Source: Metabacillus litoralis (lineage in GTDB: Bacteria > Bacillota > Bacilli > Bacillales > Bacillaceae). Taken from it: 64,000 nt of DNA. The stretch is taken from contig NZ_VOQF01000005.1 in assembly GCF_007994985.1 (NCBI RefSeq), forward strand, positions 496,001 through 560,000. The letters are read 5' to 3'. The notes below the pieces were generated by a model. That model was not told where the DNA came from, made no database searches, and worked only from the letters and a program-made list of their open reading frames with translations. This document shows, in pieces, positions 2-24,336 of this stretch; the stretch's first letter is position 1, and each line of letters opens with the position of its first letter. The translations under genes and the position numbers were made by a program.

Positions 2-265
2 TATAGAATCGTAAAGGACATAATTACAGCTTATACTGATCATGGTAACGTTCAACATATTCTTGTTGAAACAATATGGGAGGAAGAACTCAAGGTGAAA
101 ATAGATATAGCAGAAGTTGAAAAAACTCCAATGGAAATCAACGGATTTTCAATGTTATATCAAGGTATAGAGCAAAGAATCATTTTATTAGGTGGAAGAG
201 TCAATGTGATAAATCCATGTGAAATGCAAACAGTCATAAATCTTATTATTCCGAATGTGAGGTGA
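2..265 (+). CDS. Sensor histidine kinase-like protein, C-terminal fragment
   Basis: Open in frame from the window edge to a TGA; the start is outside the window. About 87 residues are visible. The last third (LLGGRVNVINP followed by a VINLIIP ending) has the shape of the end of a HATPase_c domain, where kinases show a GG-x-hydrophobic strand and a closing hydrophobic-IP strand. The upstream part lacks a recognisable DDGxGF or GxGL nucleotide-binding box, so the ATP-binding site looks degenerate. The next gene, a NarL/NreC-type response regulator, begins just past its stop codon, so the two are probably co-transcribed and co-translated. It may be a degenerate kinase or a sensor adaptor of that regulator. 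Family assignment is tentative because only the tail is seen. Confidence 0.55.
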   Translation, partial: YRIVKDIITAYTDHGNVQHILVETIWEEELKVKIDIAEVEKTPMEINGFSMLYQGIEQRIILLGGRVNVINPCEMQTVINLIIPNVR

Positions 266-18403: not shown

Positions 18404-18685
18404 TTATTCCTTATAAAGTCCATGCTTTTCTTTTAGAGAATCTGGAGCCATCTTAATCATTCTTTCTAAGATAAACGTTGCAATAACAATATCATCCACA
18501 ATTCCAAACAAAGCTAAAAAGTCTGGAATTATATCAAATGGAAAGAAGGCATACGTGATAATGAATAAAACACCAAGTAGTTTCTTATGACCTTGTACTT
18601 CGTTCGTAAAAAAGAAATCCTTCAAAAAGGGGATGAACTTCCAAAATTTAAAGATAAACTTTATTCTCTTAAAATATCTAAACAT
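18404..18685 (-). CDS. DUF1232 (YkvA-like) membrane protein
   Basis: 93 residues. The core GHKKLLGVLFIITYAFFPFD followed by IIPDFLALFGIVDD is the DUF1232 signature: a hydrophobic helix, a conserved P-x-D-x-I-P-D turn and a second helix. The N-terminus is basic and aromatic (MFRYFKRIKFIFKF). Molecular function is unknown for the family. AGGGGTGA precedes the ATG. It lies 108 bp downstream of the Spo0M-like gene on the same strand and might share its transcript. Confidence 0.75.
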   Translation of the reverse strand: MFRYFKRIKFIFKFWKFIPFLKDFFFTNEVQGHKKLLGVLFIITYAFFPFDIIPDFLALFGIVDDIVIATFILERMIKMAPDSLKEKHGLYKE

Positions 18686-18793: not shown

Positions 18794-19183
18794 TTAAACG
18801 ACTTGAATAATATCTTGATCTCTACTTTCCACACCTTCATTAAAGGTTAATCTAGTTTTGAATCGGTAGGATATATCATCAGATGATGGTGGAATATCCT
18901 CTGGCAGTTTGAAAGTGAATGATATTTTATTTGCTTCTTGAGCATTAATTAATTTTGTAGACAAAATTGTTGTACTATCTATTACTTTTTCAACATTAGT
19001 AGATTTATCGATTAAAACAAGATCACTATCTATTCTTCTAAGCTGTTGTTCAATTGTTCCACCTTTAATATAAAAATGGCCGCTAATAAGTTCACCTTTA
19101 CAATATCTATCTTTAGGTAATATGAGGTCAATGATCGCAGAACCTATACCTAAAAGTGACATGTATTTTCTAAGTAACATCAT
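18794..19183 (-). CDS. Short Spo0M-like (arrestin-fold) protein
   Basis: 129 residues with sporulation-control protein Spo0M features: an N-terminal LLGIGSAIIDLILPKDRYCKGELISGHFYIKGG, named here by its ends LLGIGSAIIDL and GHFYIKGG, then IEQQLRRIDSDL and SFTFKLPEDIPPSS. Together they form one arrestin-like beta-sandwich. B. subtilis Spo0M is about twice as long, so this is a single-domain version. It begins 14 bp after the FbpB-like gene, with AAGGAGGAAATCA in front, so the two form an operon. The upstream leader is a manganese riboswitch. The product probably acts in the cytoplasm at the envelope; its exact role is unknown. Confidence 0.75.
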   Translation of the reverse strand: MMLLRKYMSLLGIGSAIIDLILPKDRYCKGELISGHFYIKGGTIEQQLRRIDSDLVLIDKSTNVEKVIDSTTILSTKLINAQEANKISFTFKLPEDIPPSSDDISYRFKTRLTFNEGVESRDQDIIQVV

Positions 19184-19197
19184 TGATTTCCTCCTTA

Positions 19198-19326
19198 TTA
19201 TTTGTTTTGAATACTATATTTTTCATCAATACGTTTTTCAATTTTTTCTAGTTGTTGTTTATCTTTAAGAAGTTCTTCTTTATTCTTTTTAATTAAATCT
19301 ACCATTGCAGTCTTTTTAGAAAACAT
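19198..19326 (-). CDS. FbpB-like small basic protein
   Basis: 42 residues: MFSKKTAMVDLIKKNKEELL, then KDKQQLEKIEKRIDEKYS. The pattern (short basic start, LhxxNKxELLxDxxxLEKIExRIxxK helix) is that of the Fur-regulated basic protein FbpB family. In B. subtilis FbpB helps the iron-sparing small RNA FsrA. AAAAGGAGAATGATT precedes the ATG. It is the first gene behind a manganese riboswitch and is followed at 14 bp by the Spo0M-like gene. No Fur box was recognised, so this copy may answer to manganese rather than iron. The family call rests on sequence pattern only. Confidence 0.7.
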   Translation of the reverse strand: MFSKKTAMVDLIKKNKEELLKDKQQLEKIEKRIDEKYSIQNK

Positions 19327-19375
19327 AATCATTCTCCTTTTTAAATCGTTCTCCAAATGTTAAAGGTGAATAACA

Positions 19376-19409
19376 AAGAAAAAACCTTTACCAATGAGGT
19401 AAAGGTTTT
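19376..19409 (-). terminator. Second hairpin of the riboswitch leader
   Basis: AAAACCTTTACC and GGTAAAGGTTTT pair perfectly around five bases. On the minus strand a run of six T follows. It repeats the CCTTTAC core of the first hairpin. It may be a second transcription stop of the leader or, read on the plus strand, an independent terminator. Confidence 0.7.
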
Positions 19410-19410
19410 T

Positions 19411-19535
19411 TTTAAAAAATAGACCTTTACCAAATAGTAAAGGTCTTGCTAACAACTTTCGTTGCCAACAAAGCCGAGAGCAATTAGCTCTGTAGTGACG
19501 ACTCTGTTGTAAAAGCTACTCCCCTTTAGGAGACC
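19411..19535 (-). ncRNA. yybP-ykoY (Mn2+) riboswitch before the FbpB-like/Spo0M-like operon
   Basis: On the minus strand the leader contains the conserved blocks of the manganese riboswitch in order: AAAGGGGAGTAGC, then GTCGTCA, a variable hairpin (GAGCTAATTGCTC), GGCTTTGTTGGC, and GCAAGACCTTTAC. The last block also starts a terminator stem (AGACCTTTAC / GTAAAGGTCT at 19421-19446, followed by six T). The 5' AAAGG can pair with CCTTT to form the aptamer-closing stem, which would prevent the terminator. This is the usual 'on with manganese' arrangement. The same blocks occur at 23464 in front of terC. Confidence 0.85.
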
Positions 19536-19554
19536 GATTCAGTTATTTAAATTA

Positions 19555-19583
19555 ATAATATGATACTTTTATTTAAACGTCAA
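19555..19583 (-). promoter_or_regulatory. Sigma-A promoter of the manganese riboswitch transcript
   Basis: Minus strand TTGACG, 17-bp spacer, TATTAT. It is placed about 20 bp before the riboswitch. Confidence 0.75.
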
Positions 19584-19601: not shown

Positions 19602-20528
19602 TTATTTTTTTATTTTAATAGTTTGAAGAATGTCAATCATTTGTGGAGTTATTTCTTCTGATTCCTCTTTATTCAAATAATGAATGGTAAATCGAATAAG
19701 CACATCATCAACCTTTTTAACGACAATAGCTGTTTGTGTTTTATTTGTGTAACCATGAAGAAAGAATGCAGCATTACGGTAAAATTCAAGGGAATCATTG
19801 TTTATAGGTATTTCCTTTATTGTATTTCCTTTTAAATATGCTTTTGAATTCTCTTTAATCTCAGGTAATTTTGTCTGAGAATCTAACACTTCTACTCTAG
19901 AAAAATAGGCATCTTGATCCGTATATTGAAGTAGATATCTCCGAGGTTCTTCTGCATCAAAAGTAAAGTCAGAGCTGAGCTTAACAGATAATTCTACGTG
20001 TGAAGCATCATAATGATGATTGGAACGAGTTTTTGCTGCTACATTAAGCAATTGTCCAACCTTAATGGTATTTGAAGATAAATAGTTTAGTGATTTTAAT
20101 TCTGAAACTGATAACCCATAATTTCTAGCTATACTATATAGAGTATCACCTTTTTTGACAGTTACATTTGTTGGAATAATAAGCTTTTGCCCTTTATAGA
20201 TCATATTAGATGATAATTGATTGATATGCTTTAATTGGGAAACAGTACTGTTGTATTTTTTCGCAATGCTATACAAAGTATCTCCATGAATGATGGTTAT
20301 TGTAGAGGGGATCGATAATGTATGACCGGAATAAATCAACGAAGAAGTTAGATTGTTAAGCTGCTTTAACTGCGCAACGGTTACATCATTTTTTTGAGCT
20401 ATATTGTATAGAGTATCACCTTGTTGGATTTCATAAGGTGTTGATGCTTCTACTTGGTTTATCCCAAATAAACATGTCAAACCTAAAGCAAGGGCAAATG
20501 GTTTATAGATAAAGCTTTTGTGTTTCAT
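19602..20528 (-). CDS. Secreted triple-LysM protein
   Basis: 308 residues. A signal peptide (MKHKSFIYKPFALALGLTC through INQVEAS) leads into three LysM repeats (about 29-72, 76-118 and 121-163), each with a GDTLY(N/S)IA core and a closing GxxLxIP-like strand. They should bind peptidoglycan outside the cell. The C-terminal ~135 residues (from about 170) form a mixed alpha/beta domain with YLLQYTDQDAYFSRVEV and end LQTIKIKK; no known catalytic motif was recognised. There is GGAGGTCCAG before the ATG. It is a single gene, with the riboswitch promoter immediately downstream on the same strand. It could be a spore or wall protein. Confidence 0.8.
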   Translation of the reverse strand: MKHKSFIYKPFALALGLTCLFGINQVEASTPYEIQQGDTLYNIAQKNDVTVAQLKQLNNLTSSLIYSGHTLSIPSTITIIHGDTLYSIAKKYNSTVSQLKHINQLSSNMIYKGQKLIIPTNVTVKKGDTLYSIARNYGLSVSELKSLNYLSSNTIKVGQLLNVAAKTRSNHHYDASHVELSVKLSSDFTFDAEEPRRYLLQYTDQDAYFSRVEVLDSQTKLPEIKENSKAYLKGNTIKEIPINNDSLEFYRNAAFFLHGYTNKTQTAIVVKKVDDVLIRFTIHYLNKEESEEITPQMIDILQTIKIKK

Positions 20529-23428: not shown

Positions 23429-23463
23429 AAAAAACATCATAAACAATCCTAAAGTATCTTCCA

Positions 23464-23591
23464 ACGTAAAGGGGAGTAGCGTCAGGTAATTACCTGAAAC
23501 AACGTCGTCATCACATGAACAGTAGTTCATCGGCTTTGTTGGCATATTTTGTGCTCAGCGAGACCTTTGCCTATATGGCAAAGGTCTCTTT
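23464..23591 (+). ncRNA. yybP-ykoY (Mn2+) riboswitch before terC
   Basis: Conserved blocks in order: AAAGGGGAGTAGC, a hairpin (CAGGTAATTACCTG), CGTCGTCA, a second hairpin (CATGAACAGTAGTTCATCGG), GGCTTTGTTGGC and CAGCGAGACCTTTGCC. The expression platform is the terminator AGACCTTTGCC / GGCAAAGGTCT (23561-23587) with CTTTT. The 5' AAAGG competes for CCTTT. This is the classic leader of ykoY/terC-type genes; Mn2+ binding is expected to allow read-through. Confidence 0.92.
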
Positions 23592-23637: not shown

Positions 23638-24336
23638 TTGGAAATGGAATTTCTGAGTGCGCTTTTGGCAATTGTCGTAATTGATTTAGTTTTAGCAGGA
23701 GATAATGCGATCTTAATTGGACTAGCTGCAAGAAACTTGCCAAAGCATCAACAAAAGAAAGTAATCTTATGGGGATCAATCGGAGCAATCGTTATACGTA
23801 TTATTGCAACATTAGCAGTTGTATGGCTGTTGGAAATACCAGGTTTACATTTAGTAGGTGGTCTTTTATTAGTTGTTATCGCTTATAAGCTACTTGTTGA
23901 TGATTCAGATCATGGTGATGTTAAAGCGGGAGATAACTTTTGGGCAGCAATTCGAACTGTTATTATAGCAGATGCTTTAATGGGTCTAGATAATGTACTA
24001 GCAGTAGCAGGTGCATCACATGGTAATATGACTTTGGTTGTTATCGGATTATTAATTTCGGTACCAGTTGTAATGTGGGGAAGTACGCTTATTCTTAAGT
24101 GGATTGATCGTTACCCTATCATTGTTACAATTGGATCGGCTGTACTTGCATGGACAGCATCTAAGATGATTGTTGGAGAACATTTCTTAAGTGGATTCTT
24201 TGCAAACAGCTTTGTAAAGTACGGTTTTGAAGTACTAGTTGTTGCCGGAGTTATTTTAGGAGCTCGATATGTGAAGTCTAAAGCAGCTGCAAAAAAAGAA
24301 GAAGCGGTTCTCTTAAAAACTGGTTCATCTAACTAA
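23638..24336 (+). CDS. TerC-family manganese exporter (YkoY/MeeY-like)
   Basis: 232 residues, seven hydrophobic segments. The TerC metal-site motifs are present: DLVLAGDNAILIGLAA in helix 2 and DALMGLDNVLAVAGA in the second half, each with the paired acidic and Asn residues. The C-terminus is a short basic tail. B. subtilis TerC proteins YceF and YkoY export Mn2+, in part to load secreted enzymes. The start is TTG with AGGGGG 8 bases upstream. It is preceded by a manganese riboswitch, which independently supports the substrate, and followed by its own terminator. Confidence 0.92.
   Translation: MEMEFLSALLAIVVIDLVLAGDNAILIGLAARNLPKHQQKKVILWGSIGAIVIRIIATLAVVWLLEIPGLHLVGGLLLVVIAYKLLVDDSDHGDVKAGDNFWAAIRTVIIADALMGLDNVLAVAGASHGNMTLVVIGLLISVPVVMWGSTLILKWIDRYPIIVTIGSAVLAWTASKMIVGEHFLSGFFANSFVKYGFEVLVVAGVILGARYVKSKAAAKKEEAVLLKTGSSN

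Follow-up and report, generated by a model that had tools for sequence, protein, structure and literature searches.

The minus strand of the window (the whole 64,000-nucleotide stretch of DNA that was analyzed) carries a gene for a 42-residue FbpB-like peptide, followed by a gene for a one-domain Spo0M-like protein. A preliminary description had placed both genes behind a yybP-ykoY type manganese riboswitch and had read the peptide as a manganese counterpart of the iron-sparing peptide, with a link to a Spo0M-type function. The locus raises the questions of whether its leader belongs to this riboswitch class, how it could switch, and with which partners its genes are associated.

Identity and fold of the leader

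The described promoter, TTGACG-N17-TATTAT, was present (Table 1). As a pattern alone it was not beyond chance, with 8 promoter-like sites in the region vs. 7.1 expected. Its place was conserved: TTGAC started 56–68 nt 5' of GGGGAGTAG in 72 of 79 named loci (L067, which is without the element, was left out), compared with 5.5% of background windows. Both open reading frames were confirmed, the Spo0M-like frame starting at 19183, 14 bases past the stop of the 42-residue frame. Three features were absent from the preliminary description, i.e., a DUF1232 gene as the third gene, the missing aptamer arm P2, and a second RF00080 element before a TerC gene, 4 kb away from the leader element.

Table 1. 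Features of the locus, with positions in the window and the basis of each assignment.
Feature	Position	Strand	Basis
LysM protein gene	19602–20528		minus-strand order: LysM gene, then promoter, structured leader, three genes
Sigma-A type promoter	19555–19583	−	−35 TTGACG 19583–19578, spacer 17, −10 TATTAT 19560–19555; pattern scan and conserved place
Compact (P2-less) yybP-ykoY type aptamer	19437–19539	−	RF00080 32.7 bits; R1 113.8 bits; covariation among relatives
Small hairpin CUCC-UAAAGG-GGAG	19520–19533	−	stem listed in scan; CTCC by eye in most relatives' rows; putative role
P1.1 5' strand UAAAGG	19523–19528	−	pairs with CCUUUA 19443–19438
L1 metal-site loop GGAGUA of GGGGAGUAGC	19517–19522	−	invariant in the 36 rows of A2
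P3.1-L3-P3.2 arm	19466–19509	−	11 double-change pairs across its two helices
L3 metal-site loop UCACUAC	19492–19498	−	Rfam alignment; UCA invariant in A2
P4 hairpin	19452–19465	−	folding and covariation
P1.1 3' strand CCUUUA	19438–19443	−	common to T1 5' arm; covariation and folding
T1, first terminator-like hairpin (proposed anti-antiterminator)	19421–19446	−	folding, scan, relatives
Proposed antiterminator helix, 9 pairs	19398–19431	−	T1 3' arm 19431–19423 with T2 5' arm 19406–19398
T2, second terminator-like hairpin (proposed true terminator)	19379–19411	−	folding, scan, relatives
FbpB-like peptide (PF13040), 42 aa	19198–19326	−	ORF and Pfam match
Spo0M-like protein, one-lobe, 129 aa, arrestin N-lobe fold	18794–19183	−	PF07070; PDB 5cl2 by sequence and by model
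DUF1232 protein, 93 aa, third gene of the run	18404–18685	−	PF06803 34.7 bits, cut-off 23
Second RF00080 element, P2-bearing, one terminator, 5' of TerC gene (RF00080 match 23459–23556)	23456–23570	+	RF00080 match
TerC family protein, YjbE type	23638–24336	+	PF03741 165.7 bits; TIGR03717 227 bits, cut-off 134.8

The Rfam check proposed for the minus strand bore out the class assignment in part. RF00080 matched the leader at 19530–19451 with an E value of 3.4e-7 (601-base search) and the relatives co-vary, but the score remained below the gathering score of 45. Because of this shortfall, a standard scan of the whole window at the gathering threshold returned zero matches; over 20 related loci, the same threshold yielded T-box only. 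PyrR, Thr_leader and other Rfam matches of that 601-base search, most of them covering the two hairpins, were all below their cut-offs and were set aside. Model R1 was built from 36 leaders, i.e., that of the window and those of 35 of the 80 named loci. Since the window sequence is a row of R1, its high R1 score follows by construction, and the independent support for the predicted aptamer is the relatives rather than this score.

The leader folded far more stably than shuffled sequences (z −7.1). In the 36-row leader alignment A2, 98.4% of the cells were paired, and double-sided changes occurred in 15 of 29 pairs, compared with 5.4 pairs after shuffling; none of 500 shuffles reached the observed value. 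This signal collapsed when the pairing partners were slid. The P1.1 helix was paired in 99.1% of the cells, and double changes affected 2 of its pairs, of which one stems from two co-deletion rows: L104 carries a change from UA to CG, while L057 and L119 each lost one A from the 5' strand and one T from the T1 5' arm. An outer helix GGTCT/AGACC was considered as P1.1 and dropped in favor of UAAAGG/CCUUUA, since most relatives are without the former (by eye) and the latter is conserved.

All conserved yybP-ykoY aptamer blocks had been claimed for the leader. L1, L3, P1.1, P3 and P4 were indeed found, but P2 was absent. Loop L1 (GGGGAGUA) and loop L3 with its invariant, putatively metal-binding adenosine were evident from the columns of A2 and the Rfam alignment, the adenosine being identified by analogy with the available text of PMC6754395. 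The P1.1 switch helix shares its 3' strand with a terminator-like hairpin. A four-way junction with P2 was not seen, as the Rfam alignment is without P2 and the spacing between L1 and L3 is 22; in the window, a few U and A separate P1.2 from P3. Because P2 is missing, the leader was filed as a variant and not as a standard member. It is almost certainly a riboswitch of yybP-ykoY identity.

Tandem hairpins and the proposed relay

The competing terminator of the preliminary description was found, and it proved to be a pair of terminator-like hairpins, T1 and T2; the region held 5 terminator-like sites vs. 0.3 expected. The T1 3' arm, GGUAAAGGU, is complementary to the T2 5' arm, ACCUUUACC. In 66 of 72 named loci, the complementarity extends over all 9 positions; pairing is better than with permuted partners (p 0.0004), while the control pairing of T1 5' with T2 3' was no better than permutations in the same 72 loci (p 0.89). 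These 72 were the 77 parsed loci minus L063, L090, L092, L096 and L109, with L066, L067 and L115 lying outside the parsed set. Co-variation between the two arms reached a z of 4.3 on 144 elements (control 1.5) and of 3.0 on 76 non-redundant ones (control 1.8). It lends modest support to a relay between the hairpins, shared ancestry being only partly removed in these samples. Against a relay counts that the longest cross pairing was below 8 in 22 of the 144 elements.

In the proposed relay, P1.1 would not be held at low Mn2+ and its 3' strand would enter T1. With T1 closed, T2 would be free to form and RNA polymerase would stop. The small hairpin CUCC-UAAAGG-GGAG could mask L1 and the P1.1 5' strand in the metal-free state. 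In excess Mn2+, L1 docked on L3 would stabilize P1.1 and deprive T1 of its 5' arm; the freed T1 3' arm would then pair with the T2 5' arm as it emerges from the polymerase, so that T2 would be unable to close and the operon would be transcribed by read-through. The first step has a precedent in the elements of L. lactis and X. oryzae, where Mn2+-stabilized P1.1 competes with a terminator using the same 3' strand, according to the available portions of PMC11087558 and PMC6754395.

Predicted folding energies, which exclude the contribution of the metal, were −63.7 kcal/mol for the OFF state, −50.5 kcal/mol with P1.1 and P1.2 forced (T2 still closed), and −43.8 kcal/mol with the cross helix also forced. 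Alone, the cross helix was predicted at −9.8 and T2 at −16.6 kcal/mol, and an ON state did not appear in equilibrium folding. Since the energies disfavor the ON state at equilibrium, the relay would have to be kinetic, i.e., chosen during RNA synthesis. The T-runs after T1 and T2 had means of 7.4 and 7.9 T in 11 positions; as the run of T1 is only slightly poorer, T1 is not claimed to be a poor terminator.

The hairpin pair went along with the compact architecture. Among 175 distinct elements that could be parsed, the L1–L3 spacing was two-peaked, with 21–24 in 153 and 31–40 in 22 elements, and T1 plus T2 occurred in 144 of the 153 compact elements vs. 1 of the 22 P2-bearing ones. Parsing needed exact GGGGAGTAG, GTC[AG]TCA and AGACC motifs, so divergent elements were left out, and the sample is skewed to the compact form, as it includes loci chosen for the Spo0M gene and 60 order-wide loci (about every second rank among the R1 matches listed). 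L063 was counted as compact without the hairpin pair, although another parser read the pair as present.

The same hairpins may also be read as terminators in series. P1.1 would then compete with T1 in an ordinary Mn2+ ON switch, T2 would be a back-up that lowers leakage or ends some transcripts, and the likeness of T1 and T2 would stem from duplication. The P1.1-forced best fold, in which T2 stays closed, is in line with such an arrangement, as is the control pairing in the non-redundant set, whose z reaches 1.8 against 3.0 for the arms themselves. Moreover, much of the complementarity is explained by the CCUUUACC core that both hairpins share. However, a T2 left unblocked while P1.1 is formed would hardly allow the switch to be ON, and the close tracking of the compact subtype by the hairpin pair speaks against a mere series, as does the co-variation of the T1 3' and T2 5' arms. 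The latter was visible in single loci: the partner of GGTGAAGGT is ACCTTCACC in L084 and L101 and GCCTTCACC in L111, and the CCTTT of T1 5' is retained in these loci. Terminators in series were judged rather unlikely, and the two-hairpin relay is slightly favored.

Spread of the compact form and its ligand

The order pointed out for the window, with a yybP-ykoY type element followed by genes for an FbpB-family peptide and a one-domain Spo0M relative, is conserved. The Spo0M-like gene was present in 21 of 21 genus genomes, each time with a GGGGAGTAG element and both hairpins upstream. Likewise, R1 matched an element upstream, on the coding strand, in 79 of 80 named loci, the exception being L067; the named loci are the best 80 of 120 confirmed and overlap with the genus set, and the matches of 35 of them are by construction, as these are rows of the model. 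In L066 the element lay further upstream, before DUF1232 and TerC genes, and in L109 before TerC. Distant Spo0M relatives (11 loci) and L039 gave no R1 match; among these 11, a single frame is of 131 aa and all others are of at least 254 aa, L030 and L037 represent one gene, and the contig of L035 ends just upstream. Comparison across the leaders that carry the element showed the fold and its switch helix P1.1, with the loops of the metal site and the tandem hairpins conserved.

Rfam annotation covered few such elements at its cut-off. The RF00080 cut-off was passed in 15 of 61 genomes and a match at E 1e-4 or better was found in 46 of the 61, while the compact model matched in 187 of 199 genomes, a rough comparison in view of the different genome samples, models and thresholds. 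Many switches of this kind in the order therefore seem to go unannotated when the Rfam cut-off is applied. The genome of the window itself has five RF00080 matches. Two elements located 5' of TerC genes (37.9 and 25.5 bits) missed the gathering score, and a third (62.2 bits) passed.

Mn2+ is very probably the ligand of the compact leader, as judged by its aptamer letters and its genomic company. An aptamer that has lost P2 could be imagined to sense a metal ion other than Mn2+, or a wider range of ions, and the available text of a review (PMC7266159) holds that yybP variants with changed specificity probably exist, maybe for other divalent metals. The cargo is also diverse and includes a gene with a Na/Ca exchanger domain, CPA-like antiporter genes and a kinase-like gene. 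Such a change of ligand is nevertheless improbable. The P2-bearing elements that precede TerC genes in the window's genome have identical L1 letters and keep the UCA of L3, the compact form precedes YkoY-like TerC genes in 20 of 60 sampled loci, and a compact element in a genome of the same family (L181) stands before a gene that adjoins one for a manganese-dependent pyrophosphatase.

The L181 element precedes a small ORF and a DUF6376 lipoprotein gene. By its context, we take this leader to be probably that of yybP itself, the name-giver of the class; on that reading, a compact aptamer alone would probably be nothing new.

Further compact elements were observed before other genes. On contig C56 of the window's own genome (L002, 1583–1501, minus strand), an element with tandem hairpins precedes a gene that weakly matches the protein-kinase family PF00069 (E 0.0019). 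Kinase-like genes also lie behind the element in L163, L170, L173 and L179, each following a gene of 145 aa; of these four, that of L163 was tested and is DUF6376. Look-alike genes follow compact elements in L169, L171, L172 and L177, with DUF5392 (PF17370) assigned in L169, the only one tested. The antiporter genes (L133, L134) were named by eye, and the exchanger domain in L143 is PF01699. In L147 and L149, DUF1232 and the Spo0M-like gene are each preceded by a compact element; the two elements lie about 510 bases apart, with that of DUF1232 first, which gives the appearance of a switch duplication inside the operon. L076 carries a second compact element (61–164, plus strand), 2.2 kb before the one preceding its Spo0M-like gene.

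Genes behind the switch and comparison with known systems

The peptide matched Pfam PF13040 with 42.5 bits (cut-off 25). With 14.5 bits, it fell far short of the cut-off of 60 of the FbpB equivalog NF033227, and 83 of 86 peptides had their nearest neighbor in their own group when those behind the element were compared with other PF13040 proteins. By this clustering, the peptide is a separate PF13040 subfamily. The suggested search for such leaders before FbpB-family genes succeeded for one part of the family: at least 18 of 109 PF13040 matches in 61 genomes, from at least 15 genomes, followed a same-strand R1 match at a distance of 92–315 bases, but 30 high-scoring PF13040 loci, one per genome, had no such element within their 1.5-kb flanks. 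With a simple consensus (up to 3 mismatches), upstream Fur-box sites were seen for 3 of the 56 peptides of this group, compared with 2 of 30 among other PF13040 genes and 9 of 400 in background sequences; no clear signal emerged either way.

The Spo0M-like protein matched PF07070 with 68.2 bits (cut-off 23) over profile positions 1–134 of 213, which upholds the kinship with Spo0M that had been proposed. Two arrestin-like lobes, as in Spo0M, were not found; its 129 aa comprise the N-lobe only. The sole solved relative by sequence search was Spo0M 5cl2 (E 3.5e-16; 33% identity over 122 columns). A predicted model (mean pLDDT 81 from 33 sequences, first residues poor) matched 5cl2 with a TM of 0.77; the matches that followed included arrestin N-lobes and VPS26, one of them being VPS26 in complex with a stretch of the metal transporter DMT1. 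The window's genome carries two other, longer Spo0M genes, and the protein at the M. crassostreae locus is 100% identical. Spo0M itself is placed in the arrestin clan in the accessible part of PMC9105457.

A twin of the Fur-controlled iron-sparing response of FbpB, induced by manganese and feeding into sporulation through a Spo0M function, would agree with the PF13040 and PF07070 matches above cut-off and with the Spo0E-like sporulation gene in the run at 5 of 80 loci (Pfam-tested for L055 only). The missed equivalog cut-off and the separate subfamily argue against the claimed counterpart, as do the 30 high-scoring PF13040 loci without an element and the missing second lobe. Such a twin is highly improbable. 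In the text available from PMC8464778, an RNA-chaperone function of FbpB has the status of a postulate rather than of a demonstrated fact.

The neighborhoods of the 80 named loci pointed to a different partner. By profile searches, the FbpB-like peptide was in the run of 56 loci, DUF1232 in that of 30 and TerC in that of 26; kinase-like and Spo0E-like genes were rarer (8 and 5 loci), and in 14 loci FbpB, TerC, DUF1232 and kinase were all missing from the neighborhood. The downstream flanks of L049 and L050 are short in these counts, and an earlier ribosome-site scoring had overlooked many of the FbpB-like ORFs that the profile counted. The Spo0E-like gene lies between the element and the FbpB-like gene in L055, L056, L061, L070 and L114 (PF09388 tested for L055 only). 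By eye, 17 of the 21 genus genomes have the peptide gene; in L021, L023, L025 and L026 it is gone, while the element and the Spo0M-like gene are kept. Behind the 60 order-wide compact elements, TerC was found 28 times (20 YkoY-like, 8 YjbE-like), the Spo0M-like gene 17, DUF1232 15 and the kinase-like gene 8 times, with none of these behind 12; FbpB was found 12 times, a low count from a single-sequence search.

Since TerC is frequent beside or behind compact elements, the genes of the window are recurrent TerC partners behind one kind of switch. All but one of the 26 TerC proteins were closest to the TerC of contig C15 of the window's own genome (25 proteins, 75–85% identity), the remaining one to the YjbE type. 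The matching C15 gene stands separately, behind its own compact element. The RF00080 elements of contigs C34 and C15 precede TerC genes of the YkoY family, and L1 of the leader is the same as in the elements 5' of the TerC genes of this genome. Counting against the association, 54 of the 80 named loci had no TerC match in the vicinity of the Spo0M-like gene, the window's own run contains no TerC gene, and the FbpB-like peptide was not found in 24 of the 80.

In B. subtilis, TerC proteins serve Mn2+ export and the metallation of exported enzymes, as stated in the available sections of PMC10550928 and PMC12096827. From the gene neighborhood, we infer that the products encoded behind the leader fairly likely assist, as accessory factors, the manganese export or the metallation that TerC-family proteins serve at the membrane. 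This TerC link is better supported than the iron-sparing or the Spo0M link. Fold and TerC neighborhood suggest an adaptor role of the Spo0M-like protein at a membrane transporter. If true, this would be a bacterial parallel to eukaryotic arrestin-fold adaptors that handle metal transporters, e.g., VPS26.

Taken together, the locus is probably a Mn2+-responsive ON riboswitch of the compact, P2-less subtype that drives an operon of the FbpB-like peptide, the one-lobe Spo0M-like protein and the DUF1232 protein, with relay and TerC-linked cargo. Families without a firm role, i.e., the one-lobe Spo0M, the FbpB-like peptide, DUF1232 and the kinase-like protein, would thereby be tied to one metal switch. 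More tentatively, Bacillales may possess two structural Mn2+ riboswitch subclasses, the P2-less one being a two-hairpin relay (aptamer, anti-antiterminator, antiterminator, terminator) that commands a modular, largely undescribed manganese regulon, with the single-lobe arrestin as a cytosolic TerC adaptor and the basic peptide and DUF1232 as its partners.

Among the matches listed in the literature searched, no paper joined Spo0M with a yybP-ykoY riboswitch; the founding 2015 papers on the Mn2+ ligand lay outside this search. None of the searched papers joined TerC with Spo0M, DUF1232 with TerC, or yybP-ykoY with FbpB. The text available from literature naming FbpB, riboswitch and manganese together draws no link between them, Spo0M and manganese are named together in some of the searched papers, and no title among the matches listed described tandem hairpins as a relay in yybP-ykoY elements.

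Several known systems resemble parts of the locus. With the peptide, FbpB, the Fur-regulated basic protein of B. subtilis, has the PF13040 match in common; the peptide differs by its missed equivalog cut-off, its separate subfamily and its lack of a clear Fur box signal. The Spo0M-like protein has the N-lobe fold of Spo0M 5cl2 and of the arrestin and VPS26 lobes, but differs from 5cl2 in being a single lobe. For the TerC systems MeeF, MeeY and YjbE of B. subtilis, the likeness is that TerC adjoins the Spo0M-like gene in 26 of 80 loci. A manganese-responsive riboswitch of the yybP-ykoY class drives meeY, according to the portions available of PMC10550928 and PMC12096827, whereas the three TerC genes behind RF00080 matches in the window's genome all lie apart from the window run, each behind its own element. 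The L181 DUF6376 leader has the compact spacing of 22 and the tandem hairpins, with a small ORF and a lipoprotein as its cargo and a longest cross pairing of 7. The closest framework is the yybP-ykoY Mn2+ riboswitch itself, known from the L. lactis and X. oryzae aptamers. The leader deviates from it by the missing P2 arm, the replacement of a single terminator by two overlapping hairpins, a score below the Rfam gathering score, and a peptide and an arrestin lobe as cargo. It shares with this riboswitch the L1 sequence, the conserved CA in L3, the helices P1.1/P1.2, P3.1/P3.2 and P4, and a GAGACC-like 3' strand common with the terminator, and the same ON logic would be expected.
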